Source: Halalkalibacter oceani
GTDB taxonomy: Bacteria; Bacillota; Bacilli; Bacillales; Bacillaceae_D
NCBI RefSeq assembly: GCF_023715605.1
Contig: NZ_JAMBOL010000035.1
Location: 1 to 34,259, forward strand
DNA: 34,259 nucleotides
Direction: 5' to 3'
Shown here: positions 3,465-30,514 of the stretch, one piece after another
How positions within the stretch are numbered: position 1 is the first letter of the stretch
How the letters are laid out: the number at the start of each line of letters is the position of its first letter
Notes under the pieces: generated by a model
What the model was told of the DNA's origin: nothing
What the model saw: only the letters and a program-made list of their open reading frames with translations
Database searches by the model: none
Position numbers and translations under genes: made by a program

Positions 3465-4622
3465 ATGAGAAAAAAACGGTTTGCTCTACTGATGGCTGTT
3501 ATGCTGGTAATGGTCGGAGCATTTCCAGCATCATCTTTTGCAGTGGGAGGCATTGAACTTTATACCCCGTATACGGGAATAGCGGTTACGCCGGGGGAAT
3601 CAATCAATTATTCTTTTGAGGTAATGAATGAAACAGCAGAGATTCAGCAAGTGTCGATTGAGGTGGCAAATTTGCCGGAGCAATGGAGCTACGAGCTTAT
3701 TTCGGGGGGCTGGCAACTACATGAGCTGGCAATTAAGCCGAATGAGTTCACTGATTTTTCAATTAATGTCGATGTTCCGCTGGAAGTGGAGAAAGGGACG
3801 TATTCCTTTGATGTTATTGCCAGAAACCGAAGCGGAGTCGTTGAGACGCTTCCTATACAGATCGATGTGACGGAGGAGGGAACGTTTCGAACAGAGCTGA
3901 CCTCGGAGCAGCCGAATATGGAGGGTCATGCCGATTCAACGTTTACGTATAAGGTCACGCTGCGAAACAGGACAGCGGAGGAGCAGCGTTATGCGCTGAA
4001 GGCAAATGCGCCGGAGGGCTGGGGTGTCAGCTTTCAGGTTGACGGGGAAAATGTGACCTCCGTGACCGCGGAGTCAAATGCGACAAAGGACTTCGATGTC
4101 GTTGTTACACCGCCGCCTGAAGTGGAGGCGGGTGATTATTCAATACCAATTTCGGCATCGACCAATTCTACGAATGCCGAGGTCAATTTGGAGACGGTGA
4201 TTACCGGGAATTACGCAATGGAGGTTTCGACGCCTTCCGGGAAGTTAAGTGAAGATATTACAGCCGGCAGGGAGAAGACGATTCAGCTTGCTGTCACGAA
4301 TACAGGCTCCGTGCCGATCAATGATGTGAAACTGAGCGCCCAGCAGCCGGTAGACTGGACTGTCACCTTTGCTCAGGATACCATTCCGGTTATTGAACCA
4401 GGTCAAACCGAAACGGTTCAGACGACGATTCAGGCGAGCAAGGACGCGATTGCCGGTGACTATATCGTTTCGATTGAGGCGAATGGAGCCGGAACAGCGG
4501 GAAAAGCTGATTTTCGCATGCAGGTTGAAACGTCGCTCCTCTGGGGATGGATTGGTGTCCTCATTATCGCGTGTGTACTGGCCGGTATTTACTATATGAT
4601 GCGCAAATATGGAAGGAGATAA
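3465..4622 (+). CDS. Exported NEW3-domain membrane protein
   Basis: A 385-residue protein that should be exported and anchored by its C-terminus. It has a signal peptide (residues 1-26, probable cleavage after SSFA), about three Ig-like NEW3-type (alpha-galactosidase-associated) repeats at about 30-135, 145-235 and 250-350, each with the pattern of a WxVxF strand followed by a P-G-x-T/Y turn, then one transmembrane helix at about 358-378 and a short basic tail. It begins an operon with an ABC ATPase and an ABC-2 permease. Such NEW3-ABC triplets are known in Firmicutes and archaea, but the substrate is not established. The start follows GAAGGAGGGAAGG. It is probably an extracytoplasmic partner of the transporter. 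Confidence 0.82.
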   Translation: MRKKRFALLMAVMLVMVGAFPASSFAVGGIELYTPYTGIAVTPGESINYSFEVMNETAEIQQVSIEVANLPEQWSYELISGGWQLHELAIKPNEFTDFSINVDVPLEVEKGTYSFDVIARNRSGVVETLPIQIDVTEEGTFRTELTSEQPNMEGHADSTFTYKVTLRNRTAEEQRYALKANAPEGWGVSFQVDGENVTSVTAESNATKDFDVVVTPPPEVEAGDYSIPISASTNSTNAEVNLETVITGNYAMEVSTPSGKLSEDITAGREKTIQLAVTNTGSVPINDVKLSAQQPVDWTVTFAQDTIPVIEPGQTETVQTTIQASKDAIAGDYIVSIEANGAGTAGKADFRMQVETSLLWGWIGVLIIACVLAGIYYMMRKYGRR

Positions 4623-6639: not shown

Positions 6640-7752
6640 ATGCAGACTGTAAGTGTGATTGGAACGGGGATTTTGGGAGCGGCAACGGCTTATCATCTGG
6701 CAAAGGCCGGCGTCGAGGTGACGATGATAGACCGGGAAGAGCCGGGGCAGGCGACGGATGCAGCGGCGGGAATCGTCTGTCCATGGATTTCACAGCGGCG
6801 TAATCAGGCCTGGTATCAACTTGCAAAAGCGGGAGCACGCTATTATCCGACACTCATTCAGGCGCTGGAGGAAGAGGGAGAGCCGGATACGGGCTATGCA
6901 AAAGTCGGAGCGATTAGTCTTCATACCGAGGAAAAAAAGCAGTTGGAAATGGTGAAGCGGACGCTCAAACGGCGCGAGGACGCTCCTGAAATTGGCGAGG
7001 TGATCCCGCTTTCTGAAGAGGAAACGAGAGCATTGTTTCCGCTGTTGGCACCGGGCTATCGCTCGGTTTATGTGAGCGGCGCGGCAAGGGTGAATGGCCG
7101 GTCACTGCGAAGGGCCTTACTGACAGCCGCCTTGCGATATGGGGCGAAGGAAGTGAAGGGGGATGCGACATTCGCTTATGAGGGCGCTGATCTTGTCGTC
7201 CGGGTAAACGGGGAGAGCTTACTGTCCGACCAGGTCATCGTCACGGCCGGGGCCTGGGCCAAAGCGCTATTGGCGCCGCTTGGAGTGGAGTTCATGGTCA
7301 GTCCGCAAAAAGCGCAAATTATTCACTTGGCTTTACCCGGCGCCGATACAGGCGAGTGGCCTGTCGTGATGGCTCCGGCCAACCACTATATGCTGGCATT
7401 CGGTAGGGAGCATGTGGTGACAGGGGCGACGCATGAAAATGAGAAAGGCTTTGATCAACGGAGAACGCTTGCTGGTATGAATGAAATTTTTGAGAAGACG
7501 TTGAAGACGGCGCCGGGTCTTGCTGAAAGTACGGTGCTAGAGACAAGAGTCGGCTTCCGCCCGTATACGCCGGAATTTTTGCCGGTTATTGGCAGGCTTC
7601 CGAGTCATGAGCACGTCTTTGTCGCCAACGGTCTCGGAGCATCCGGGTTAACGGTCGGGCCGTTTCTCGGAGCGGAGCTGGCCAGGCTTGTGCGTGGAGA
7701 AAAAACGGAGCTTGATTTACAGCCGTATGATGTAGCCGGAGCGATTGAGTAA
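6640..7752 (+). CDS. FAD-dependent amino-acid oxidase/dehydrogenase (DAO family)
   Basis: A 370-residue flavoprotein of the D-amino-acid oxidase/glycine oxidase/DadA superfamily, which oxidises the amine carbon of amino acids. The Rossmann motif GTGILGAATAYHLAKAG starts at residue 7 and ends with an acidic residue (MID) that binds the FAD ribose. The C-terminal FAD contact is the VGFRPYTPEFLPVIG block, followed by FVANGLGASGLTVGP. The ATG at 6640 follows GGAAAGGTG. It is transcribed alone. Substrate cannot be fixed by sequence; glycine/sarcosine or a D-amino acid is plausible. A PLP enzyme acting on D-amino acids lies at 13.9 kb but is not in the same operon. Confidence 0.87.
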   Translation: MQTVSVIGTGILGAATAYHLAKAGVEVTMIDREEPGQATDAAAGIVCPWISQRRNQAWYQLAKAGARYYPTLIQALEEEGEPDTGYAKVGAISLHTEEKKQLEMVKRTLKRREDAPEIGEVIPLSEEETRALFPLLAPGYRSVYVSGAARVNGRSLRRALLTAALRYGAKEVKGDATFAYEGADLVVRVNGESLLSDQVIVTAGAWAKALLAPLGVEFMVSPQKAQIIHLALPGADTGEWPVVMAPANHYMLAFGREHVVTGATHENEKGFDQRRTLAGMNEIFEKTLKTAPGLAESTVLETRVGFRPYTPEFLPVIGRLPSHEHVFVANGLGASGLTVGPFLGAELARLVRGEKTELDLQPYDVAGAIE

Positions 7753-8094: not shown

Positions 8095-8289
8095 GTTCTC
8101 TTGTTGCATGAACTTTCCTTATTTACCCAATTTAAGTATTGTTTTGTGTCTCTGGATATTGTAACCTGAAACTATTAAGAATGAATGTCTTTCAAAGATT
8201 GAAAGGACAAGCTGAGGTTATGAGAGAGTCTTTACAGCTGCGACCAGGCCAAAAAACAATAACGAGAATATAAAATGGAGGCTGGAAAA

Positions 8290-8766
8290 ATGCGAAAGAG
8301 ACGAGCGATGATGATGATCACGTTAACGGTTATTTTATTTGCGGGAGTTGGAACTGGCACGGTCGGATGGGCATCAAGTGATCTTCCATTTGGTAACGGT
8401 TCCGAAGACACCGTGCCCATGGATCATATGGACCCTACTCCGTTTGTTCCGGTGGCTGAGATAGATATGGAGGGAAAGAACGATACTGAGGAGCATCAAA
8501 AATCCCTTAAAGGTGTACCCATCAGTCATTCAGAAGCACCGGTTGAAGCTGTAGCAGGCGTAAATGCTCATGAAGACACCGTGCCCATGGATCATATGGA
8601 CCCTACTCCGTTTGTTCCGGTAGCCGAAATAGATATGGAAGGAGAGAACGCTATTGAGGAGCATCAAAAATCCCTTAAAGGTGTAACCTTGAGTCATTCA
8701 GAAGCACCGGTTGATGTAGCGAGTGATGAACCTATAGAAGTGGTAAAAGAAGTTGAAGTAGAGTAG
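8290..8766 (+). CDS. Secreted protein with two 56-residue tandem repeats
   Basis: A 158-residue acidic protein with an N-terminal signal peptide (MRKRRAMMMITLTVILFAGV, cleavage probably near VGWASS). Residues 39-94 and 95 onward are two copies of one unit starting EDTVPMDHMDPTPFVPVAE and containing EEHQKSLKGV and SHSEAPV. The frame extends back to 8275, but GGAGG at 8277-8281 is the ribosome binding site for the ATG at 8290. I do not recognise the family. The Met/His/Asp-rich DHMDP motif could bind a metal, but that is inference only. Confidence 0.72.
   Translation: MRKRRAMMMITLTVILFAGVGTGTVGWASSDLPFGNGSEDTVPMDHMDPTPFVPVAEIDMEGKNDTEEHQKSLKGVPISHSEAPVEAVAGVNAHEDTVPMDHMDPTPFVPVAEIDMEGENAIEEHQKSLKGVTLSHSEAPVDVASDEPIEVVKEVEVE
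8404..8715 (+). repeat. Tandem direct repeat, 168-bp period
   Basis: The DNA for the two protein repeats starts at 8404 and 8572. The first 50 or so bases are identical and later positions differ mostly at third codon positions, so the duplication is fairly recent and has stayed in frame. Confidence 0.9.
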
Positions 8767-19823: not shown

Positions 19824-19853
19824 AAATCAGTGCTTAATTGTATAGGAGAAAAA

Positions 19854-19993
19854 GCCTTCGTATATCCTTAGGAATATGGCCTAAGAGTCTCTACCGGATG
19901 ACCGAGAATCATCTGACTATGAAGCAGATTCTGTTATGCTGGAATCTGCCTTTGTATGTTGTGGAGAAGCAAAGGCGGATTTCGGCTTTTTTT
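19854..19993 (+). ncRNA. Guanine riboswitch with transcription-termination platform
   Basis: A purine riboswitch aptamer at 19856-19924: P1 (CTTCGTA with TATGAAG), the J1/2 signature ATATCC, the P2 arm with loop GGAATATGG, J2/3 GTCTCTACCG and P3. The specificity base in ATCTGACTATG is C, which reads guanine rather than adenine. Downstream, GCAGATTC (19924-19931) with GAATCTGC (19942-19949) forms an antiterminator that competes with a terminator, 19941-19954 with 19970-19983, followed by seven Ts (19987-19993). Guanine binding should stabilise P1 and switch guaA transcription off. Confidence 0.92.
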
Positions 19994-20116: not shown

Positions 20117-21658
20117 GTGAACGAGTTAAACCAGGAAATGATTGTCGTTCTTGATTTCGGGGGACAGTACAACCAGCTTATTACACGGAGAATCCGTGAT
20201 TTAGGGGTATACAGCGAACTGCATTCCAACAAGATTACAGCAGATGAATTGAAGAAAATGAATCTGAAAGGGATTATTTTTTCAGGGGGGCCAAATAGTG
20301 CCTACGTGGAAGGGGCGCCGAAATGTGATCCGGCTATTTTTGAGTTGGATGTGCCGATTTTAGGGATTTGCTACGGCATGCAGCTAATGACCCAGCATTT
20401 TGGCGGGCGCGTTGAAGCTGCCGAGCATCGTGAATACGGAAAAGCGCGCATCAAAGTTGAAAACCAGTCTAACTTATTTCTCGGCCTTCCGATCGAACAG
20501 TCTGTCTGGATGAGTCACGGTGACTTAATTGTCGCCCCGCCAGATGGTTTTGTCGTTGATGCTTCCAACCCTTCTTGCCCTGTTGCGGCGATGAGTGATG
20601 AACGCCGTCAGCTTTACGGCGTTCAATTCCATCCGGAAGTACGTCATTCTGAGTTTGGCGACGCCTTATTAAAGAATTTCGCTTTTGAAGTATGTAAGTG
20701 CGCGGGTGAATGGTCGATGGAGAATTTCATCGAGGAAGAAATTCGGAAGATCCGCGACCAGGTCGGGGACAAGCAGGTGCTTTGCGCCTTGAGCGGCGGG
20801 GTTGATTCCTCGGTCGTGGCTGTTTTAATTCATAAAGCGATTGGCGACCAGTTAACATGTATGTTCATTGACCACGGACTGCTTCGGAAGGATGAAGCAG
20901 AAAGTGTGATGGAAACGTTCAGTGAAGGCTTTAACATGAACGTGATTAAAATCGATGCCCAGGAACGCTTCTTGTCGAAGCTGAAAGGTGTTTCCGATCC
21001 GGAGCAAAAACGTAAAATTATCGGGAACGAATTTATTTATGTGTTTGAAGAAGAGGCAGGCAAGCTGAAGGACATGGATTTCCTTGCTCAAGGAACGCTC
21101 TATACCGACATTATTGAGAGCGGAACCGACACGGCGCAAACGATTAAATCGCATCACAATGTTGGCGGACTGCCTGAGGATATGAGCTTTACGTTAATCG
21201 AACCGCTTAACGCTCTTTTCAAGGACGAAGTGCGCAAAGTCGGGACAGAGCTCGGCATTCCTGACGAAATCGTCTGGCGTCAGCCGTTCCCGGGACCTGG
21301 TCTTGGCATTCGTGTCCTCGGTGAAATTACGGAAGAAAAGCTTGAAATCGTGCGCGAGTCCGACGCCATTTTGCGCGAGGAAATTAAAAAGGCCGGACTT
21401 GACCGCGAAATTTGGCAATACTTCACCGCGCTTCCTAACATGCGAAGCGTCGGTGTAATGGGAGACGCGCGGACGTATGATTACACCGTCGGCATTCGCG
21501 CCGTTACGTCAATCGACGGCATGACATCCGACTGGGCGCGGATCCCATGGGAAGTGCTGGAATTGATTTCAACGCGGATTGTCAATGAAGTCAAGCACGT
21601 CAACCGCGTAGTCTATGACATTACATCAAAGCCGCCGGCGACGATTGAGTGGGAGTAG
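20117..21658 (+). CDS. guaA: GMP synthase (glutamine-hydrolysing)
   Basis: Converts XMP to GMP using ATP and glutamine, in cytoplasmic purine synthesis. 513 residues from the GTG at 20117, which has AAAGGGTG eight bases upstream; an in-frame GTG at 20108 has no proper spacing. The class I amidotransferase triad is Cys85 (GICYGMQ), His172 and Glu174 (QFHPEV). The ATP-pyrophosphatase loop is SGGVDSS at about 226-232, and the C-terminal dimerisation domain contains [15 protein letters not shown]. It ends ATIEWE. Its last codons are the known insertion site for guaA-type mobile elements, and an integrase follows. Confidence 0.98.
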
Positions 21659-21660
21659 TT
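21640..21660. other. Probable attachment site at the 3' end of guaA
   Basis: The end of guaA reads ATTGAGTGGGAGTAG. Elements with this class of integrase are known to enter at exactly this place, keeping the gene intact. I searched the window by eye for a second copy: only a 9-mer, GTGGGAGTA, recurs (30510-30518), inside another repeat, so the right attachment site is probably beyond the window. Confidence 0.5.
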
Positions 21661-21666
21661 GTCGGA

Positions 21667-21715
21667 GAGCTGAAACCCCTTTGTTTATAAGGGTTTCGGC
21701 TCTTTACTCTATTTT
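21667..21715 (+). terminator. guaA terminator
   Basis: GAGCTGAAACCC (21667-21678) pairs with GGGTTTCGGCTC (21691-21702) with one G-U pair, then TTTACTCTATTTT. Its tail touches the integrase stop codon on the other strand. Confidence 0.85.
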
Positions 21716-22926
21716 CATTGCATTGTTATTGCATTATTTGTTTTTAAACCTTTACGCAGGTAACGAGCAGTGAATTGATTCTTGGGTGAAGTATCTTCAT
21801 TTTCTGTTGCTGTTTGGTAAGACATAATACCTTCTAATTTATGGGCTACTTCAAAGTTACTGTTAGGATACAAATGTCCGTAGGTGCCAAGTGTCGTTTC
21901 AATATCTTCATGTCCTAGGCGGTCTTTAATGATTAATGGGTTTTCGCCCATACTAATAAGCAAAGAAGCGTGAGAATGTCTTAAAGCATGTAATCTAATT
22001 CGATGAACCCCAGCTTTTTTTGAAAAACGTGTAATGGCATTCGCTAACGTATGCTTTTGTGTGGGGATACCATTATAGCTCATTACAAAATTGGTTTGAA
22101 CGACAGATTGCTGCACGTCCTTCCATTCGCTGAGTAACGTTAGTGTATCTCCATCTAATGCAATATGACGAACACTAGCCTTTGTTTTTGGTTCTACAAA
22201 AGAATAGTTATCCAAATTCTTATAGTAAAGTGTTTTATCGATAGATAACAGACCTTTGTCAAAGTCAATATCTTCCCATTGAATCGCAGTGGCTTCTCCA
22301 ATTCGCATGCCTGTCATAAATAAAAACCACAATGAAATAAATAAAAAATGTTGATAATAATCTTCTTTATAGAAAAGAGAGATGACCTTTTCAAATTCTT
22401 CTTTTGTCCAAAAGTCTATTTTGGTCTTTGTTTTCTTCACATTACCTACAATTTTCGATGGATTATTTTCAGCTAGTCCTAAAACAACAGCTCGATCCAT
22501 TGCCATAGAAAACAACCCTTGAACATTTCTAATATAAGAAGAACGATACTTCTTTTTAGATAATGCTAATTGCCATTTTTGAACATGGATCGGGGTAATT
22601 TCCGTTGTGATTAAGTTATTAAAAAAAGTGAAATGTTTTCTTACAGTCGGTAATCGATTATCGTACGTTCTTCTTTTTACTTGTGTTTTATACCAAGGTA
22701 AGAAAATATCTTCAATAAAATGTTGGAATAAAACGTCATCTTGCTTTTCTTCTAGTGCATCTGGTTTTGTAAGTAGTAACCTTGAATATTCTTCCCTTGC
22801 TTCTTTTTTAGTTTTAAAACCACTGCGGTACTTCTGAATTTGCTTGCCAGTGATGGGGTGATACCCTAAATTAGCACGAAAATAATATGTTCCATTCTTT
22901 GCCTTTTTGACGATATCTTTAGTCAT
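21715..22926 (-). CDS. int: Tyrosine recombinase (integrase) of the guaA-inserted element
   Basis: A site-specific recombinase that integrates and excises the element. 403 residues: an N-terminal arm-binding, AP2-like domain (about 8-45), a core-binding SAM-like domain (about 65-165), and a catalytic domain. Catalytic residues are visible as R in TGMRIGEA, H-x-x-R in LHALRHSHAS, H in RLGHEDI and the nucleophile Y in TYGHLYP. The ATG at 22926 follows AAGGAGTG; the frame reaches back to 22968. Position directly after guaA on the opposite strand, with the DUF3173 gene upstream, is the usual layout for Firmicutes elements at this site. Confidence 0.95.
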   Translation of the reverse strand: MTKDIVKKAKNGTYYFRANLGYHPITGKQIQKYRSGFKTKKEAREEYSRLLLTKPDALEEKQDDVLFQHFIEDIFLPWYKTQVKRRTYDNRLPTVRKHFTFFNNLITTEITPIHVQKWQLALSKKKYRSSYIRNVQGLFSMAMDRAVVLGLAENNPSKIVGNVKKTKTKIDFWTKEEFEKVISLFYKEDYYQHFLFISLWFLFMTGMRIGEATAIQWEDIDFDKGLLSIDKTLYYKNLDNYSFVEPKTKASVRHIALDGDTLTLLSEWKDVQQSVVQTNFVMSYNGIPTQKHTLANAITRFSKKAGVHRIRLHALRHSHASLLISMGENPLIIKDRLGHEDIETTLGTYGHLYPNSNFEVAHKLEGIMSYQTATENEDTSPKNQFTARYLRKGLKTNNAITMQ

Positions 22927-22964
22927 GATTTCACTCCTTACGCAATTAGTGCAAGAAGTACAAA

Positions 22965-23150
22965 TCACACATCTAAAGTTATCCCTAATACTTCCTCCAC
23001 AGCTTCTTTTGGAACACGATCTAACTTTTTTGATTGATAATACGTGTGTCCCTTTGAAATCATTAGTTTTTTACACTCCCTAATGATATCAGCTGAAAAA
23101 GAGGGACCATAACCTAGCGCTATCAAGTCTTTTTTAGTGACGGTAACCAT
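22965..23150 (-). CDS. DUF3173 family small protein
   Basis: 61 residues (MVTVTKKDLIALGYGPSFSA...). The DUF3173 pattern is clear: K-x-D-L-x-x-L-G-Y, the S-x-x-I-I-R-x-x-K segment, and a C-terminal VP-x-x-x-VEEVLGI. It lies 38 bp before the integrase with an AAAGGAG ribosome site, same strand. DUF3173 genes regularly sit next to this kind of integrase and are thought to act in recombination control, as an excisionase or regulator; that role is inference. Confidence 0.85.
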   Translation of the reverse strand: MVTVTKKDLIALGYGPSFSADIIRECKKLMISKGHTYYQSKKLDRVPKEAVEEVLGITLDV

Positions 23151-23323
23151 ATGAACTCCTTTCCATAGACTAGGATATGCTATTTGATATCTGTCTATTA
23201 TTATATCGCTTCTATAAAACTAATTCTAATATGTTGCGTGAATTTGGCTCTTGCACTAAAATAAAAAGGATTTAATGTCATAACTTGATAGTTACTTTAA
23301 CCTATCTTGCTAAATTGAATATA

Positions 23324-23618
23324 AAAAATCAGACGGCTGCTGGTGCAGCTCCACGGGAATTTCACCCCTGCAAGTATTTCTTCCAGCCCTACTCATAGCT
23401 TGCGACGGTTCAAACGCTCGAACCATGACGATAGGGGAGTATCATTATCCTAACTGATGGGTTATCGCCAGCAATCCACCACGATTACATTAGATTCATA
23501 GATTATCGCTCGTTTCTAACGAAAGTCATGGCGTATGAATCAATTGGCTCATCATCAGTAGAACGTATCTGATTTTTTGCTTATACTGCACGGCGTAATC
23601 TTCCGTGCTTTCTTTGTC
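23324..23618 (-). ncRNA. Candidate structured RNA, copy 1
   Basis: A conserved non-coding segment downstream of the HTH pseudogene, read on the minus strand. Hairpins: GCACGG/CCGTGC (23588-23593 with 23603-23608), CCCTA/TAGGG (23387-23391 with 23432-23436), and the 3' hairpin GCTGC-ACCA-GCAGC (23336-23349) followed by CGTCTGATTTTTTAT. Compared with copy 2, changes in two of the helices are matched on both sides. The reading frame present in copy 2 is broken by stops here. Not recognised as a named RNA family. Confidence 0.5.
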
Positions 23619-23667
23619 AAAGAACAAATATATGATGAATGAAAGGGAAAACCTAACCATTCTGTAT

Positions 23668-23928
23668 TCAAATTTTGAAAGTTAAAACAGATTGCATAAG
23701 CTTCGCTCGTAAGCGTTCGCGTGTATCTTCATCGATGCCTCAATAAGTGTTACCTTGTTCATCACGGAGCTTACGCATGGATAAACTTGTCATATAGCTT
23801 CTATAATGTAGAACAACTACTTTCATTGCTTCTAGCTCACCCTTATTTGCAGCTAAAATGATTGGATACGGCAAAAAGCCACGCTCATTGATTTCCGTAT
23901 TAGTATTAATCATCCCATTCATCTGCAT
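23668..23928 (-). pseudogene. Helix-turn-helix (Tn916 Orf8-like) gene, nonsense mutation
   Basis: Matches the intact HTH protein at 29.7-29.9 kb: GFLPYPIILAANKGELEAM, then SYMTSLSMRKLRDEQGNTY. Where copy 2 has TGG (Trp) after NTY, this copy has TGA (23740-23742), although the frame behind it stays clearly related (GIDEDTRERLRAKLMQSVLTFKI) to a stop at 23668. The last 13 codons of a sigma-like gene (RRFLEEHADEWDD, 23906-23947) overlap its start, as in copy 2, but the rest of that gene is deleted. Starts at 23928 or 23922 are possible, with GGAGGAGC just upstream. Confidence 0.85.
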
Positions 23929-24030
23929 GCTCCTCCAAAAAACGTCTTGATGATTTCCCCTTTCATTACCTTCAACAAGTTTTTTTGTAAAATGCCAAAA
24001 ATCAGAGAAAAAGTTTTTAAAAAACAATAA

Positions 24031-24054
24031 CCCAACTGAATATTAACAGTTAGG
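24031..24054 (-). terminator. Leader hairpin with T-run, copy 1
   Basis: On the minus strand CCTAACTG pairs with CAGTTGGG (8-nt loop; one U-G pair) and is followed by TTATTGTTTTTT. It marks the upstream end of the direct repeat. The same structure occurs in copy 2 (30490-30514), ahead of the sigma-like gene. It may terminate the upstream kinase transcript or act as an attenuator. Confidence 0.55.
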
Positions 24055-24391
24055 TAGAATCATTTTTAATATTTAATATTAAGGACCAAAACAAGAAATA
24101 CTTTAAATGTCAAACTCTATTTTATTACAATTCACATAAAAACTGATCGAACATAATAATGAATAATACAAAATAAAGTTTTTTAAATCGTGGTATTAAT
24201 AGAACAATTTTTGAAAAAATCGATCAAAATATAATAAAAACCTGGTTATAGCTATTTTCAATTAATGCACTTACTATTGACTATATTATTTAATATTTAT
24301 TAAGCCTTACGATAAACATTATTCTACTCGAACACCTTTAATTTGATACTTATTTTCCGATTAACCAATTTCTTTAACCCCACCATTATAC
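24055..24391. other. AT-rich gap without genes
   Basis: About 340 bp of very AT-rich sequence after the kinase stop codon. I see no open frame with a ribosome site, no strong hairpin with T-run directly after the kinase gene, and no repeat other than the leader hairpin at its left end. Confidence 0.5.
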
Positions 24392-25417
24392 TTATAGATC
24401 ATAATAATTTCTGATTTTTGGAAAGTGGATGATGACCTTCGTATATTTCCCATCTTCTGAATGAATGGAAAGGTCATGTCCTAATTTAAGAGCCATTTCT
24501 TTTGCAAGGTAGAGACCTAAACCGGTAGATTTGGCATGACTTCTCCCAATAGATCCTGTAAATCCTTTTTCAAATACGCGGCTGATATCCTCTGGCTTAA
24601 TTCCAATGCCTGTATCTTGAATCTGTAGCCGCTTTTCTTTTCGATCTTCCTCAAATTGTACGGAGATTTCCCCGCCTTCACCTGTATATTTTAAAGAATT
24701 TGAAAAAACTTGATCCATAATAAAACCAAGCCATTTACTGTCGGTATGGACAACCTGTTCAATATTGTCCATATGAAAACGAATTTGCTTGTTAATAAAA
24801 GATTTGGCAAATTTCTTTACACTATTTTTAGCGACTTGATCCAACACTACCTCGGAAATAAAATAATCTTTGGAAAAAGAATCAATGCGAGAATAATAAA
24901 GAGCCTGCTCCACGTAATTTTCGATTCTATCCAACTCATCTTCAAACTTGTCCACAAGGTTTTCAACAGTTCTTCCATTACTGTTTTCCATAAGCAAGCG
25001 ACCTGCCGCAATCGGAACCTTGACTTCATGAATCCAAGATGTAATAAAGTCTTGATGATCCATTTTTTCGTTATACAACTTTTGTAATTGATCGCCATGC
25101 ACACTATTTACTTTTTTTAATAACTCAAGATATAACAGTTGTTCATCGTTTCGCGGTTTAGGCAGAGTTGCGAGAAATTCTTCATGATTACTTTCAACCA
25201 CATCATTTAATTCCCGATAAAATTCTCTATTGTAATAGTATTCGATGATTACGTATATAGCTACAATAAAAAAGATAACCATATTGGTATATACGATATT
25301 ACTTACAGCGTTTCTGGAATCTGTGCTCACAATCATCATCAAAGAAACAAAGAACATAATGATCATGTTTAATATAAAGAAATTCCGTTTATCTTTTAAG
25401 TAATGAAAGAAATTCAT
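24392..25417 (-). CDS. BceS-like intramembrane-sensing histidine kinase
   Basis: 341 residues. Two closely spaced transmembrane helices (about 13-31 and 41-60) with only some 10 residues outside, and no sensor domain: the hallmark of BceS-type kinases, which read the activity of a partner ABC transporter. The phospho-accepting His130 lies in TSWIHEVKVPIAAG. The ATPase domain shows the N-box (IMDQVFSNSLKYT), G1 DTGIGI and G2 STGLGLYLA. The ATG overlaps the regulator's stop codon (ATGA). The partner transporter is encoded divergently at 26.3-29.0 kb. Expected ligands are cell-wall-active peptides bound to their lipid targets. Confidence 0.92.
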   Translation of the reverse strand: MNFFHYLKDKRNFFILNMIIMFFVSLMMIVSTDSRNAVSNIVYTNMVIFFIVAIYVIIEYYYNREFYRELNDVVESNHEEFLATLPKPRNDEQLLYLELLKKVNSVHGDQLQKLYNEKMDHQDFITSWIHEVKVPIAAGRLLMENSNGRTVENLVDKFEDELDRIENYVEQALYYSRIDSFSKDYFISEVVLDQVAKNSVKKFAKSFINKQIRFHMDNIEQVVHTDSKWLGFIMDQVFSNSLKYTGEGGEISVQFEEDRKEKRLQIQDTGIGIKPEDISRVFEKGFTGSIGRSHAKSTGLGLYLAKEMALKLGHDLSIHSEDGKYTKVIIHFPKIRNYYDL

Positions 25418-26085
25418 TGAATTATATAACCTTGTCCTTTCTTAGTTGTAATAAAGTGTTCTTTTCCAAGTTCAACAAGTTTTTTACGCAGGCGAGCAAT
25501 ATTAACCGTCAATGTATTTTCGTCCACGAAATTTTCATTCTTCCAAAGGCTACGCATCATTTTCGTACGACTGACGATGATTCCTTTATTTTTCATAAGA
25601 ATTTTTAAAATAAGAAATTCTGTTTTCGTGAGTTCCGATTTTCGATCTCCATGTAAGACCTCTCCGTTTTCAAGATTTAATATAATTCCATCATGTTCCA
25701 TTGTCTGAGACTGTGTTTCCATATAGGAATACGTTCTGCGAAGGAGTGCATTTATTTTTGCAATCAATACATCCATATGGAAAGGTTTTTGAATATAATC
25801 ATCTCCTCCCATGTTCATCGACATCACTATATCCATTGGTGTATCACGGGAAGAGAGAAAGATCATAGGGACCTTTGAAATTTCTCTGATTTTATTACAC
25901 CAGTAAAATCCGTCAAACGATGGCAAATTGATATCCATGATGACTAGGTGAGGATCATGATTAAGAAATACCTGCATGATTTGGTCAAAGTCTTCGATCT
26001 TAACGGTTTCAAAACCCCACTTTTCTAATGCTTCCCCTACCATATCACGAATGGTCAAATCATCTTCCACAATCATGATTTTCAT
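25414..26085 (-). CDS. BceR-like OmpR-family response regulator
   Basis: 223 residues: a receiver domain with acidic ED-D at 7-9, phospho-accepting Asp51 (VIMDINLPSFDG) and the conserved lysine in IQKPFH, then a winged-helix domain (LTKTEFLILKILMKNKG, DENTLTVNIARLRKKL). The frame opens upstream at 26184, but ATG 26085 follows GGAGGGAAGAGGA and starts the canonical MKIMIVEDD. It is divergent from the transporter operon; a likely binding site lies between them. Confidence 0.93.
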   Translation of the reverse strand: MKIMIVEDDLTIRDMVGEALEKWGFETVKIEDFDQIMQVFLNHDPHLVIMDINLPSFDGFYWCNKIREISKVPMIFLSSRDTPMDIVMSMNMGGDDYIQKPFHMDVLIAKINALLRRTYSYMETQSQTMEHDGIILNLENGEVLHGDRKSELTKTEFLILKILMKNKGIIVSRTKMMRSLWKNENFVDENTLTVNIARLRKKLVELGKEHFITTKKGQGYIIQ

Positions 26086-26183
26086 TCCTCTTCCCTCCAA
26101 ACAATCATCCTTCTGTAACATCATATTAATTGAATATCGACCAACATACAAAGAAAACATCGTGTTTAATATATTTTTTATCA

Positions 26184-26230
26184 ATGTGACGAAAATGTAA
26201 GGTTACGAGATCAAGCTGTAAGTTTATATA
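26184..26230 (+). promoter_or_regulatory. Candidate BceR-type operator and promoter of the transporter genes
   Basis: ATGTGACGAAAATGTAAGG at about 26184-26202 resembles the BceR-family recognition sequence (TGTGACG, four-base A-rich centre, ATGT). TATATA at 26225-26230 could be the -10 box, 17 bp after GTTACG. It is 62-108 bp before the ATPase ATG. Similarity is from memory of the family; not searched. Confidence 0.5.
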
Positions 26231-26291
26231 AAGAGCAGCTATTGTAAAATAAAAACATAAAACAAAACTATTCTGAATGGAGGATTTAAAT

Positions 26292-27059
26292 ATGAAAACT
26301 ATTGTCGAAGCAAAACAAATAAAAAAAGTCTATGGTGCAAAGGGAAATGTATTTTCAGCTTTGGAGGATATAGACTTAACCGTCATGGAAGGTGAATTCG
26401 TCGGTATTATGGGTCCCTCGGGTGCTGGTAAATCAACTTTACTAAATATATTGGCAACAATTGACGAGCCGACTGCTGGTGACATCGTGGTTGACGGAAT
26501 CAATTTGACAAAGATGAATGAAGAGCAATTATCTGCCTTTCGCCGTGACAAACTTGGTTTCCTTTTCCAAGACTATAATTTATTAGATACTCTAACTGTG
26601 AAAGAAAATATTATCTTGCCGTTAGCCTTGGCAAAATTGAACGTTGAGGAATTGGAACGAAGAGCAGATGAAGTGGCAGATAAGTTTGGCATTCGCGACA
26701 TTTTAAATAAGTACCCGTACCAAATTTCTGGGGGACAAAAGCAACGCACGGCAGCATCACGCGCGATTATTTCAAAGCCAAACCTAATATTGGCAGATGA
26801 ACCAACAGGTGCGTTGGATTCGAAATCAGCAACAGACTTATTAGAAAGTTTAAAGGATCTTAATGAACAAGACAAGGCAACAATTTTAATGGTTACCCAT
26901 GATGCTTATGCGGCAAGTTATTGTAATCGCGTCCTATTTATTAAAGACGGTAAAATCTTCACAGAACTTGTAAAAGGGAAAAGATCCCGCAAAGAATTTT
27001 TCAACAAGGTATTGGATGTTCTATCCGCACTGGGGGGTGGAGCAAATGACGTTATTTAG
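26292..27059 (+). CDS. BceA-like ABC transporter ATPase
   Basis: A 255-residue ATPase of the peptide-antibiotic (Bce/MacB-like) type. Walker A is GPSGAGKS at 41-48, the Q-loop is FLFQDYN, the signature is ISGGQKQR at about 145-152, and Walker B ILADEPTGALD. The ATG at 26292 follows GGAGG; the frame starts earlier at 26277. The last 14 bp overlap the permease gene. With the permease it should recognise a cell-wall-active peptide or its lipid complex, remove it, and signal through the divergent kinase. Confidence 0.94.
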   Translation: MKTIVEAKQIKKVYGAKGNVFSALEDIDLTVMEGEFVGIMGPSGAGKSTLLNILATIDEPTAGDIVVDGINLTKMNEEQLSAFRRDKLGFLFQDYNLLDTLTVKENIILPLALAKLNVEELERRADEVADKFGIRDILNKYPYQISGGQKQRTAASRAIISKPNLILADEPTGALDSKSATDLLESLKDLNEQDKATILMVTHDAYAASYCNRVLFIKDGKIFTELVKGKRSRKEFFNKVLDVLSALGGGANDVI

Positions 27060-28971
27060 TTTAGCAAGGAAAAATATTAAAGGTAATTTCAATAATTATT
27101 TTGTCTATTTTGTTACACTCGTCTTCAGCATGGTTATTTATTATACGTTCACTTCCTTGCAATATAGCGAAAAAATTCAGGAAAGCATTGAATTGTCGGA
27201 TACAATGAGTTTCATGTTTGGGGTATCATCAATTATCTTAATTTTATTCGTAGCAATCTTTATTTTGTACTCCAATTCATTCTTCACAAGAAAAAGGAAG
27301 AAAGAAGTCGGATTGTACGCCATACTTGGTTTACGCAAGAAAACCATTGCAAAAATGTTGTTTTATGAAAATTTGATTATGGGAATCATTGCAATAGTTA
27401 TTGGAATTATTCTTGGAACCTTACTTTCCAAATTATTTGCAATGATTTTAATAAAACTTATGGGTTCAATTGCCGAGGTGGACTTCGGTATTTCCATTCT
27501 AGCGATTACCCAAACAGTCATAGTCTTTATGGTCATTATTTTATTCACTTCCGTTCAAGGTTACCGTTTGATTTATCGTTTTACATTAATCGAATTATTC
27601 TATGATGAGAAAAAAGGAGAACAAATTCCAAAGGTTTCACTTATTACGGCTGTTATCGGAGTTATATTTCTTGTCGTTAGTTACTGGCTGATATTAAAAC
27701 CATTTCCTGACGAATTTACTACGGAATATTTAATAAAAAATTATGGTATTGCTTTTGTTGCTCTCGTCATTGGCACCCATTTATTTTTTCGATCTGTAAC
27801 GGTCTATTTATTAAGATTATCACAAAAAAATAAGTCGCGTTATTACAGAGGAACTAGAATAATTGAAACATCTCGTTTACTGTTTCGTATTAGAGGGAAT
27901 GCACGTACCTTTACAGTCATTGCATTGTTGAGTGCTGCTACGATCTGTTTCTTAGGTGCAACTTACAGTGGGTATTACAGCAACGAAAAAAGAGCTAAGG
28001 AAGTTGTTCCATTCAGCTATTCGCATTTGTCAAAAGGTCCAGAATTTGATTCGCAGGTGGAGAGCATAATAAAAGCAGATCATCGACATCCAATAAAAGC
28101 CCAACTAGACATACCCGTCATTCAGGTAAAAGGAATACTCTCATTTCAACTGGATTATGACATAAATCCTGTGAAATTAATCTCAGAAAGTACATTTAAT
28201 AAAGTAGCGAATGCTTTAAATAAGGATGAAACAGTCTCACTATCAGGAAATCAAGCAGCAGTAATCCAGCCAAGGTTTACTGAATATACGAAGTCGGTTT
28301 TTAAAGGAGAAAATATAACGATTCAATTGCCTCAAGGAAGCAGCGAACTGCCATTTGTTCATATGGTTGAAAGTAATGTGCTACCTTTCGATTATCCCGA
28401 TTTCTTTCTAGTAGTCAGTAACGAAATGTTTGCTGAGATAGCCAAAAAAGAGGCTCCATTAACTTATAAAGTGTATGAAGTGGAAAATGAAGTAACGGCA
28501 CAAGCCACATCAAAGAAAGTAAATAAACTGGTTGGAAACGATTTTCAAGTTTCTTCATCATTTTATACGGAGTATAAGCAAGGTAAAGAAGGAAACGCAA
28601 TTACTCTCTTTATTTTCGGATTTTTGGGGCTAGTATTTTTAGCAGCAACTGGAAGTATCATTTATTTCAAACAGTTAACAGAAGCGAATGAGGCGAAAGG
28701 ACACTATGAAATCCTTAGAAAAATCGGTGTCAATAAAAAGGATATACGTAAATCAATCAAAAGGCAGTCATTATTTGTGTTTGGATTGCCACTAACCATA
28801 GGAATATTGCACAGTTGTGTGGCATTGTACTTTACTAGCAACTTTATTTCTAATCTCATTGGAATCAATCTTATTTTCCCTATTCTAATGGCTATAGTCT
28901 TCTTTGTTATTATCTATGCAGTCTATTACGTATTAACTGTTAATACGTACAATCGCATTGTAAACAAATAA
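27046..28971 (+). CDS. BceB-like ABC transporter permease
   Basis: 641 residues. It has the ten-helix BceB topology: helix 1 at about 17-37, then FtsX-type helices, a large extracellular domain of about 200 residues between helices 7 and 8 (about 315-520), and three final helices with the EILRKIGVNKKDIRKSIKRQ coupling segment. The ATG at 27046 follows GGGGGGTGGAG. The big external domain is the feature that sets Bce-type permeases apart and is thought to contact the peptide. The peptide it handles cannot be told from sequence. A terminator follows directly. Confidence 0.93.
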   Translation: MTLFSLARKNIKGNFNNYFVYFVTLVFSMVIYYTFTSLQYSEKIQESIELSDTMSFMFGVSSIILILFVAIFILYSNSFFTRKRKKEVGLYAILGLRKKTIAKMLFYENLIMGIIAIVIGIILGTLLSKLFAMILIKLMGSIAEVDFGISILAITQTVIVFMVIILFTSVQGYRLIYRFTLIELFYDEKKGEQIPKVSLITAVIGVIFLVVSYWLILKPFPDEFTTEYLIKNYGIAFVALVIGTHLFFRSVTVYLLRLSQKNKSRYYRGTRIIETSRLLFRIRGNARTFTVIALLSAATICFLGATYSGYYSNEKRAKEVVPFSYSHLSKGPEFDSQVESIIKADHRHPIKAQLDIPVIQVKGILSFQLDYDINPVKLISESTFNKVANALNKDETVSLSGNQAAVIQPRFTEYTKSVFKGENITIQLPQGSSELPFVHMVESNVLPFDYPDFFLVVSNEMFAEIAKKEAPLTYKVYEVENEVTAQATSKKVNKLVGNDFQVSSSFYTEYKQGKEGNAITLFIFGFLGLVFLAATGSIIYFKQLTEANEAKGHYEILRKIGVNKKDIRKSIKRQSLFVFGLPLTIGILHSCVALYFTSNFISNLIGINLIFPILMAIVFFVIIYAVYYVLTVNTYNRIVNK

Positions 28972-28977
28972 GGGCGA

Positions 28978-29014
28978 AACATCTCTCGAATGTTCGGTTC
29001 GGGAGGTGTTTTTT
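28978..29014 (+). terminator. Terminator of the transporter operon
   Basis: AACATCTCTCGAA (28978-28990) pairs with TTCGGGAGGTGTT (28998-29010), two G-U pairs, 7-nt loop, then TTTT. It begins seven bases after the permease stop codon. Confidence 0.9.
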
Positions 29015-29176
29015 CATGTATTCCTTTGTTAAAAAAATCCTCATTACTCTGGAATCTAGACCGATTATATTATTGAAGATCAAATTGAACATCCTTAAAT
29101 CTTCTAACAACAAAAAATCGAATGATTGGAAATATGATAACTCCTATACAAAATGTATCGCCAATAGAAACACAAT

Positions 29177-29323
29177 TCAGTCTGTAATATCAGAAATAAT
29201 GCCATATTCTTTCATTAATTTATTTTTAACCATGTAATATTCTTTCTTGGTAATCAAATTACGGGTTAGCAGTTGTTTTAACATAGCAATTTGTATACTA
29301 TAAAGAATCAAATCCTGTTTCAA
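29177..29323 (-). CDS. Small SHOCT-like protein
   Basis: A 48-residue protein read on the minus strand from a TTG at 29323, with AGGGGGG eight bases upstream. The sequence has an amphipathic first helix (DLILYSIQIAMLKQLL) followed by the SHOCT-like part NLITKKEYYMVKNKLMKEYG and the tail IISDITD. Short proteins with this G/N-L-I-x-x-x-E-Y/F pattern are common near recombinases in Firmicutes elements. It lies just upstream of RNA copy 2, same strand. The forward open frame over the same bases has no ribosome site and odd composition. Confidence 0.75.
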   Translation of the reverse strand: MKQDLILYSIQIAMLKQLLTRNLITKKEYYMVKNKLMKEYGIISDITD

Positions 29324-29348
29324 AAAACACGCCCCCCTATAATTAATT

Positions 29349-29640
29349 AAAAATCAGACGGCTGTTGGTACAGCTCCACGGGAATTTCACCCCTGCAAGT
29401 ATTCCTTCCAGCTCTACTCATAGCTTGCGACGCTTTGAACGTTCGAACCATGACGGTAGAGGAGTATCATTATCCATACTGATGGGTTATCGCCAGCAAT
29501 CCACCACGATTGTATTAGACTCATAGATAATCGCTCGTTTCTATCGAAAGTCATGGCGTATGAATCAAGTGGCTCATCATCAGTAGAACGTATCTGATTT
29601 TCGGTCTATACTGCACGGCGTTATCTTCCGTGCTTTCTTT
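29349..29640 (-). ncRNA. Candidate structured RNA, copy 2
   Basis: Downstream of the HTH gene on the minus strand. Helices: GCACGG/CCGTGC (29613-29618 with 29628-29633), CTCTAC/GTAGAG (29412-29417 with 29456-29461), and 3' hairpin GCTGT-ACCA-ACAGC (29361-29374) followed by CGTCTGATTTTTAATT. A 60-codon open frame (ending near 29408) crosses it without start signals, and copy 1 breaks that frame twice, so an RNA is favoured over a protein. It could be an independent RNA or a long 3' UTR with terminator. Confidence 0.5.
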
Positions 29641-29683
29641 GTCAAAGAACAATATATGTGAAAGGGAAAACTTAACCATGTAA

Positions 29684-29938
29684 TCAAATCTTGAAAGCTA
29701 AAATGCCCTGCATAAGCTTCGAACGTAAACGATCATGTGTGTCTACATCAATGCCCCAATACGTATTACCACGCTCATCATAAAGTTTACGCATAGACAA
29801 ACTTGCCATATAGCTTCCATAATGCAAAATAACGTAATTCATCGCTTCTGGATCACCCTTATTTGCAGCTAAAATAATTGGATACGGTAATAAGCCACAT
29901 TCGTTGTCTTTTGTGTTAGCATCAATCATCCCAGTCAT
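29684..29938 (-). CDS. Helix-turn-helix protein, Tn916 Orf8-like
   Basis: 84 residues from the ATG at 29938 (the frame starts at 29944; ATG 29929 is also possible). GGAGG lies inside the end of the sigma-like gene nine bases ahead of 29938. The chain reads GLLPYPIILAANKGDPEAMN, then SYMASLSMRKLYDERGNTYW and DRLRSKLMQGILAFKI, the helix-turn-helix domain typical of conjugative transposons. It overlaps the sigma-like gene in another frame, so the two are coupled. Known relatives belong to the transfer-control region of Tn916-family elements. Confidence 0.85.
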   Translation of the reverse strand: MTGMIDANTKDNECGLLPYPIILAANKGDPEAMNYVILHYGSYMASLSMRKLYDERGNTYWGIDVDTHDRLRSKLMQGILAFKI

Positions 29939-30359
29939 CTGCATGTTCCTCCAAAAATCGCTTTAACCTTTTAAAAGAGCTTGTCCGTCTATACTGAACC
30001 GTACTACGAGGAATCTCTAGTAGTTCGGCTATTTCTACATCTGATTTATCAAAAAAATAGTATAGTAGGACTGTCTTACGCTTTTCTATTGGCAAAGTAC
30101 GCAACGCTTCAGCGAGTAATTTCGGAGTTATTTTCTTTCCAACCACTTGAAAACTTTGTCCTTCTTCTCCTTCATATTGCTGATCTAAGGTATAGAGTTG
30201 ATTTTCTTCTTGTGGTGTGAGATCAGAAAATGTCATCTCCTTTGCTTGTCGTTGTTGTCTTTCGTTGAAAATATTGATTGCTTCATTCTTCAGTACACGT
30301 TTACAAAAAGCATTAAATGCACAGCGAACTTGCCACTCGGTACGATCTGGTTCTATCAT
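29922..30359 (-). CDS. Sigma-70-like regulator, Tn916 Orf7-like
   Basis: 145 residues from the ATG at 30359, which follows GGGAGAGGAAATGC; the frame runs on upstream to 30494 through leader sequence also present in copy 1. The N-terminal half has the NAFCKRVLKNEAINIFNERQ helix of the family, and the C-terminal half is a sigma region-4-like helix-turn-helix (LPIEKRKTVLLYYF and SDVEIAELLEIPRSTVQYRR). Such proteins regulate transfer and excision genes in Tn916-like elements. Intact here, deleted in copy 1. Confidence 0.87.
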   Translation of the reverse strand: MIEPDRTEWQVRCAFNAFCKRVLKNEAINIFNERQQRQAKEMTFSDLTPQEENQLYTLDQQYEGEEGQSFQVVGKKITPKLLAEALRTLPIEKRKTVLLYYFFDKSDVEIAELLEIPRSTVQYRRTSSFKRLKRFLEEHADDWDD

Positions 30360-30489
30360 GCATTTCCTCTCCCTTCGCAACTGCAAAGGTGGGTGATGAT
30401 TTCCCCTTTCATAACCTTCAACAAGATTTTTTATGAAATGCCAAAAATAAGAGCAATATTTTAAAAAATATTCATTAAATACAAAAAAG

Positions 30490-30514
30490 CCCAACTGAAC
30501 ATAAGCCAGGTGGG
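30490..30514 (-). terminator. Leader hairpin with T-run, copy 2
   Basis: On the minus strand CCCACCTG pairs with CAGTTGGG except for one mismatch, then CTTTTTTG. Equivalent to 24031-24054. It stands 130 bp before the sigma-like start codon and may act as attenuator or block upstream transcription. Confidence 0.45.

Follow-up and report, generated by a model that had tools for sequence, protein, structure and literature searches.

Background

In Tn916, a cis-acting processive antiterminator, canT, was mapped between orf8 and the excisionase gene by Wirachman and Grossman (2024; PMC11658703). In the parts of their report used here, canT lets RNA polymerase pass terminators of the element as well as foreign ones, does not need other Tn916 genes, acts in cis and not in trans and in one orientation only, and works in a reporter outside the element (PMC11658703). 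Mutants in canT excised normally and did not express the distant transfer genes. The substitution canT(S3), ATA to TGC starting 283 nucleotides (nt) past the orf8 stop, was inactivating, the S3 bases being needed for antitermination, and the deletion canT(D162) covers 229 to 390 nt (PMC11658703). Those parts of the report give only single-sequence folding for canT (PMC11658703). A 34,259-nt stretch of Halalkalibacter oceani (contig NZ_JAMBOL010000035.1), here called the window, was analyzed for a duplicated noncoding segment on the minus strand, in which an earlier note made from the sequence alone had seen a candidate new structured RNA. Very probably, each copy belongs to a Tn916-like integrative and conjugative element (ICE), or to what remains of one, and is a processive antiterminator RNA of the canT type, with the pemK RNA of Rfam as its 3' part.

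Two copies of the pemK RNA

Copy 1 occupies about 23325-23626 and copy 2 about 29352-29651, both on the minus strand, in agreement with the positions and strand reported earlier. The 5' limits then proposed, 23618 and 29640, were too short, and the segment runs upstream to a boxA-like sequence ending at 23626 and 29651. Over the stretch that begins with boxA and finishes with the 3' arm of P1, the helix closing the RNA, the copies are identical in 277 of 302 aligned columns, with two of the differing columns being gaps, and the wider repeat unit shows 85% identity over 624 columns. No open reading frame (ORF) of at least 50 amino acids was listed inside copy 1; copy 2 has one of 53 amino acids on the opposite strand.

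Both copies match Rfam family RF02913, pemK RNA, over the full model and well above its curated cut-off of 34.8 bits, copy 1 at 23351-23448 with 62.8 bits and copy 2 at 29376-29473 with 59.8 bits (both on the minus strand). The RNA is therefore structured, with real covariation, but not new. Its novelty had been made dependent by the earlier note itself on a comparison with Rfam, and with this match in both copies a new RNA class was rejected. The family has the Rfam type Cis-reg, and its original paper is said to be that of Weinberg et al. from 2017. In 22900-30500, the remaining Rfam families all stayed below their cut-offs.

Within the host genome, RF02913 matches these two sites only. Among 60 genomes searched, comprising the host and relatives, a match was found in the host alone, and 26 of 398 genomes sampled across the phylum carry RF02913, the host counted. 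Such a patchy distribution suits a mobile element. Records with similar DNA comprised 31 plasmids, 28 of which came from Enterococcus, and three entries of a phage collection.

Correspondence with canT of Tn916

The pemK RNA of Rfam and canT appear to be one RNA. In the Tn916 records L033 and L036, the bases at the canT(S3) position are ATA, located at 4002, which is the start of the RF02913 match (4002-4102), and canT(D162) spans this whole match. The S3 bases are kept, as the ATA of the strand ATAATGATACT in both window copies and 283 nt past the orf8 stop in the two Tn916 records. Copy 1 lies between orf8 and the integrase gene on the coding strand, with a DUF3173 gene replacing xis; copy 2 also follows orf8, but DUF3173 and the integrase come 6 kb further on. 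Six annotated elements were inspected (L031 to L036), all matching RF02913 above the cut-off and all with a helix-turn-helix (HTH) gene upstream. In five of the six, namely, Tn916 (L033 and L036), a vanB element (L031), a TndX element (L032), and a Monoglobus element (L035), the RNA is followed by xis, integrase, or recombinase genes, and in L034 by a TnpW gene, with no recombinase annotated in the stretch inspected.

The earlier suggestion of a regulatory RNA of transfer control, tied to a sigma/HTH pair, is most likely correct, the Tn916 homolog canT having been studied experimentally in the work drawn on here (PMC11658703). The words 'pemk', 'rfam', 'boxa', and 'nusb' have no occurrence in the text of that paper, and no paper joining pemK RNA and canT was found in the open-licence literature.

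Extended fold of the RNA

A pattern scan yielded at least 116 stretches of genome contigs and two viral contigs. Among the matches listed, 131 pattern matches yielded 124 RNAs with enough flank, copies near a contig end being left out; five RNAs of this pool were added by coordinates, a Vicingaceae sequence (L051) that looked like a chance pattern match was left out, and near-duplicates were removed per analysis. Forty sequences picked for diversity from the 124 RNAs, both window copies included, were aligned with MAFFT without structure and then folded with RNAalifold. The consensus has 37 pairs, 31 of them with both sides changed in at least one sequence. Paired cells made up 92.9% of 1,428 versus 68.3% when shuffled, and the covariation score was 0.665 versus 0.224 shuffled and 0.101 to 0.137 with partners slid, where the shuffles, like the swaps in the helix and loop tests below, ignore the kinship of the sequences. 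The covariation that the earlier note wished to see sought in a wider alignment is present. Over the paired cells, G·U outnumbers A·C by 132 to 24, and the RNA-sense strand, which is the minus strand for the window copies, is therefore the folded one.

Helices 4, 5, and 6 (P4, P5, and the GGUGAAAUUCC hairpin P6) are those of Rfam and are supported in the wider alignment, with both-side changes in 6 of 6 pairs of P4, 6 of 6 of P5, and 1 of 3 of P6, whose other two pairs are invariant. Outside the Rfam model lie P1, P2, a short GCC/GGC pairing, and P7. P1 is a long-range helix that joins both ends of the RNA of about 250 nt, spanning 23327-23574 in copy 1 (5' arm 23574-23567, 3' arm 23334-23327) and 29352-29599 in copy 2 (5' arm 29599-29592, 3' arm 29359-29352). 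In Tn916, the predicted RNA corresponds to 142-408 nt past the orf8 stop. The arms of P1 vary widely among lineages and change together. In an anchored test separate from the 40-sequence alignment, own arms paired over 7.75 base pairs (bp) versus 4.96 bp for swapped arms and were higher in 63 of 69 distinct rows; the anchor was present in 85 of the 124 RNAs and missing from 39, and the 69 rows include two-candidate and some plainly wrong anchors. This replaced a long-window test, in which 4 of 67 fell in the best 5% of swaps and the own mean was -21.7 versus -18.3 kcal/mol. The held-out test, with an anchor in only 9 of 20, gave weak support (own 7.33, swapped 5.36).

P2 closes the 5' domain and stops just before the conserved AUAAUGAUACU; in copy 1 it spans 23453-23559, pairing ACTGATG (23559-23553) with CATCAGT (23459-23453), the latter placed by eye. 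Inside this domain, P3 pairs GATTCATA (23541-23534) with TATGAATC (23500-23493), and across the family its own pairing was 5.38 versus 3.55 swapped and higher in 53 of 69 rows, with P3 misplaced by the anchors in many of them. The conserved junction strand ATAATGATACT, the first three bases of which are the canT(S3) triplet of Tn916, is located at 23438-23448 in copy 1 and at 29463-29473 in copy 2. The loop GTGGTG of hairpin P3b (23482-23477 in copy 1) is complementary to the loop of P7, which reads GCTGC ACCA GCAGC at 23336-23349 in copy 1 and GCTGT ACCA ACAGC at 29361-29374 in copy 2. This complementarity recurs in the family, with a summed run length of 320 over 87 distinct loop pairs, compared to a mean of 232.6 (standard deviation 8.3, maximum 259) in 2,000 re-pairings. 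Against a parallel control, antiparallel runs were longer in 36, shorter in 10, and equal in 41 of the 87 pairs, and runs of at least 4 numbered 44 versus 28, in a test that includes wrongly picked hairpins. A loop-loop contact between P3b and P7 is thus supported as a prediction, pair-by-pair proof aside.

The paired base changes between the copies noticed earlier were borne out in the 3' hairpin, P7 (GCTGC/GCAGC versus GCTGT/ACAGC), and in a second helix (CCCTAT/GTAGGG versus CTCTAC/GTAGAG), and they exceed chance because both helices recur with compensatory changes in the 40 sequences. The hairpin GCACGG/CCGTGC (P0, 23588-23608 in copy 1), also noticed earlier, is constant between the copies and differs by one base in its loop; by eye, similar hairpins occur in only part of the family.

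A boxA upstream of the RNA

Directly 5' of each copy lies an exact match to the boxA-like sequence TGTTCTTTGACAA, at 23614-23626 and at 29639-29651 (minus strand). The sequence TGTTCTTTGAMAA has two sites in the host genome, both being those 5' of the window copies. Among the matches listed, 66 of 114 distinct RNAs had TCTTTGAMAA in the 330 nt upstream, and none of the 114 reversed, complemented, or reverse-complemented regions did; a looser boxA form was found in 96 of 114, versus 12 reversed and 18 reverse-complemented. Twenty further RF02913 loci had the loose form in 19 cases and the exact form in 15. In one locus (L025), the exact boxA is oddly close to the core, with just 32 nt between them.

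The one assembled 16S gene of the host (contig C102) is preceded by GTTCTTTGAAAACTGAAC about 144 nt before its start. The GTTCTTTGAAAACT before this gene is near-identical to the boxA of the copies and also accompanies 16S genes in another genome of the genus. In the complete same-genus genome, 28 of 29 TTCTTTGAMAACT sites lie at most 400 nt from a 16S gene, before or after it, where the boxA of ribosomal RNA (rRNA) operons lies. Two other genomes had 3 of 4 and 0 of 3 such sites near 16S genes, and one of the latter three lies 5' of a pemK RNA. As described in the part of PMC12691694 consulted, boxA binds S10 and NusB in antitermination complexes.

Gene context across the family

Among the matches listed, an upstream ORF was found for 101 of 121 distinct RNAs, with HTH_16 in 52 and Sigma70_r4_2 in 32, and a long downstream ORF for 78 of 121, with Resolvase in 44 and Phage_integrase in 27. 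The 63 small downstream ORFs, taken from 111 first downstream ORFs with the long ones left out, included HTH_17 in 13, DUF3173 in 6, and PemK in 5, the last of which fits the family name. By these counts, therefore, the RNA is most often accompanied by the sigma/HTH pair and a recombinase rather than by pemK.

Several of the records showed further features. SQ2397 (RF03532, 229.8 bits), a cis-regulatory RNA upstream of the sigma gene, was found at 2657-2886 in L032 and at 2553-2782 in L033 and L036; in the window, RF03532 stayed below its cut-off. The Monoglobus replicon (L035) has a second pemK RNA at 6676-6772 on the opposite, minus strand, near a short recombinase ORF. In L036 (KY065497.1), recorded as 'Streptococcus phage IPP61', Tn916 genes adjoin a translation-elongation-factor-like gene. 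An IMG/VR 'viral' contig (L154) and an Anaerosphaera aminiphila contig (L105) are of equal length with the same RNA at the same position, and the former is perhaps an ICE, not a virus.

Genes around the copies in the window

Upstream of copy 2 are an orf7-like gene with sigma-70 region 4 (29922-30494, PF08281, E 2.2e-9, start uncertain) and an orf8-like HTH_16 gene (29684-29944, PF12645, E 5e-21), both on the minus strand. A second HTH_16 copy (23674-23868, minus strand) lies upstream of copy 1, so that HTH genes precede both RNAs as noticed earlier, but the one beside copy 1 has an in-frame TGA. An ORF at 23740-24027 before copy 1, judged by eye and from two blast blocks, seems to consist of the start of orf7 joined to its end and to a shortened orf8, and looks as if orf7 had an internal deletion. 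Downstream of copy 1 on the minus strand follow the DUF3173 gene (22965-23150, PF11372, E 6.8e-29) and a tyrosine integrase gene (21715-22968, PF00589, E 1.7e-21), the latter adjoining the 3' end of a gene that we take from its sequence to be guaA.

The copies enclose cargo genes for a histidine kinase and response regulator forming a two-component system (24392-26184, minus strand) and for an ATP-binding cassette (ABC) ATPase with an FtsX-type permease (26277-28971, plus strand, antisense to the copy 2 transcript). An intrinsic terminator between copy 2 and the integrase (24030-24055, minus strand) was predicted by pattern scan only. In Lederbergia galactosidilytica (L136, 1-8000), the order is orf7, orf8, RNA, ABC and two-component cargo, orf8 copy, and RNA. 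The two RNAs there point the same way at a distance of about 6 kb, and the cargo proteins are very similar to those of the window. The same two-copy arrangement has therefore moved or persisted.

An attachment-site repeat at the guaA end was sought in the window; from 21560-21770, one chance-length 13-mer and no repeat of 14 or more bases was found, and from 21600-21740 no 24-mer with at least 19 matches. A purine riboswitch (RF00167, 78.2 bits) before guaA at 19838-19939 was the sole other Rfam match over cut-off in the window. At 132-1892, three overlapping ORFs look like putative Cas4, Cas1, and Cas2, and an ORF at 8275-8766 has an internal repeat with VPMDHMDPTPFVPVAEIDMEG present twice. 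Elsewhere in the host genome, contig C51 has a match to PF12696 (TraG-D_C; L178, G000:C51:12483-12770), which might belong to a transfer module.

Alternative explanations

A ligand- or protein-sensing leader, either a riboswitch or an attenuator, that controls only the next genes, xis or DUF3173 and the integrase, would agree with the Cis-reg type, with the frequent position of the RNA just before recombinase genes, and with its strong structure and a 3' hairpin that a loose scan accepts as terminator-like. It is improbable, as, according to the consulted parts of the Tn916 study (PMC11658703), mutation of canT leaves excision normal but abolishes expression of transfer genes far away, and foreign terminators are passed as well. 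Moreover, the next small gene varies (HTH_17, DUF3173, PemK, resolvase, and others), and the T-run that follows the 3' hairpin belongs to P1 as one of its arms. This last point bears equally on an independent small RNA with its end at the small hairpin and T-run, which are present in both copies as the earlier note described and were listed by the loose terminator scan (11 sites including both 3' hairpins; mean of 5.4 in shuffles). The stem has only 5 pairs, the T-run starts several bases later, and TCTGATTTTT is in homologs the 3' arm of the long-range helix P1, a different sequence standing there where the P1 arms have changed. The ending is better explained by this closing helix, a function of the hairpin and T-run as a terminator is doubtful, and the terminator and small-RNA readings were disfavored; with canT also inactive in trans in the Tn916 experiments consulted (PMC11658703), a free small RNA is highly improbable.

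That the conserved strand works as single-stranded or cruciform DNA in transfer or recombination, suggested by its hairpin-rich sequence in mobile DNA near a recombinase, is barely conceivable. The excess of G·U over A·C, for which this reading was disfavored, speaks against a cruciform, though not against single-stranded DNA of the folded strand, and in the parts of the report used here a reporter outside the element responded to canT, in cis and in a single orientation (PMC11658703). An appreciable but minor chance is left to the copies being decaying relics of an inactive element without present function, given the in-frame TGA in orf8 beside copy 1 and the two relaxase families not found in the host genome; both RNAs, however, keep their helices with compensating differences between them, and the two-copy arrangement recurs in L. 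galactosidilytica.

Several observations weigh against the interpretation as a canT-type antiterminator. Relaxases PF02486 and PF03432 are absent from the host genome (other relaxase families were not searched, and the contig ends at 34259), and transfer of the element is therefore doubtful. The orf8 next to copy 1 is interrupted, xis/int do not directly follow copy 2, and some of the 101 upstream and 78 downstream ORFs match neither gene kind. In the consulted parts of the Tn916 work, a 291-nt fragment spanning the D162 and S3 stretches showed no activity, and the S3 change did little or nothing to a 400-bp fragment (PMC11658703). The 452-bp fragment that was active has its start at nt 126, within the boxA at 120-133, and its Tn916 part thus lacks the first six bases of TGTTCTTTGAAAAC. 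Because this active fragment starts inside boxA, the role of boxA in antitermination and the need for it are uncertain. The activity of both window copies is one that we infer.

Proposed mechanism and implications

On the reading as a canT-type antiterminator, transcription from the orf7 promoter region through orf7 and orf8 would yield the RNA, which would fold into a body of about 250 nt held together at its ends by P1; the AUAAUGAUACU strand would lie in the junction, and the loops of P3b and P7 would touch. The folded RNA would act on its own RNA polymerase, and downstream terminators would then be ignored. In the excised circle, the transcript would continue into the transfer genes, coupling their expression to excision. 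In the window, copy 2 may carry the transcript over the 5-kb cargo, past the predicted terminator at 24055-24030, to copy 1, DUF3173, and the integrase. The polymerase contact and the Nus-factor role of boxA are, as we infer, parts of this process. Tentatively, as something possible rather than probable, we propose a composite antiterminator in which an rRNA-type boxA loads Nus factors and the 250-nt RNA, with its closing helix and kissing loop, locks them onto the polymerase. Such a switch would be standard in Bacillota ICEs, whichever recombinase class they use, and would tie transcription of the transfer genes to excision.

As a sequence, the window feature is an ordinary member of a known family; together, the link between pemK RNA and canT, the extended fold, and the boxA provide an unexplained RNA family with a probable, testable function, and canT gains a conserved structure beyond the single-sequence folding found in the consulted parts of PMC11658703. 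Excision-coupled antitermination is suggested as a common form of transfer control in ICEs, and a testable link is proposed between the rRNA antitermination machinery and horizontal gene transfer.

Comparison with known systems

The Rfam model of pemK RNA has 61 positions, corresponding to about 98 nt of the window copies; beyond it, the RNA described here adds P1, P2, P3, P3b, P7, the loop-loop contact, and boxA. The antiterminator RNA EAR has an Rfam model, and it differs from the window RNAs in that cmscan of 22900-30500 listed no match to it up to E 5. With EAR, put, and conAn2, canT has cis-acting RNA antitermination in common, as stated in the parts of PMC11658703 used here. Compared to rRNA operon boxA and the nut sites of lambda, the TGTTCTTTGACAA of both copies resembles the GTTCTTTGAAAACT of the host 16S leader, whereas in the window boxA precedes a large structured RNA. 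The closest counterpart is canT of Tn916, which like the window copies sits between orf8 and xis on the same strand and whose sequence is the RF02913 match there; the window differs in having two copies, copy 1 before DUF3173 and the integrase and copy 2 before a cargo operon.

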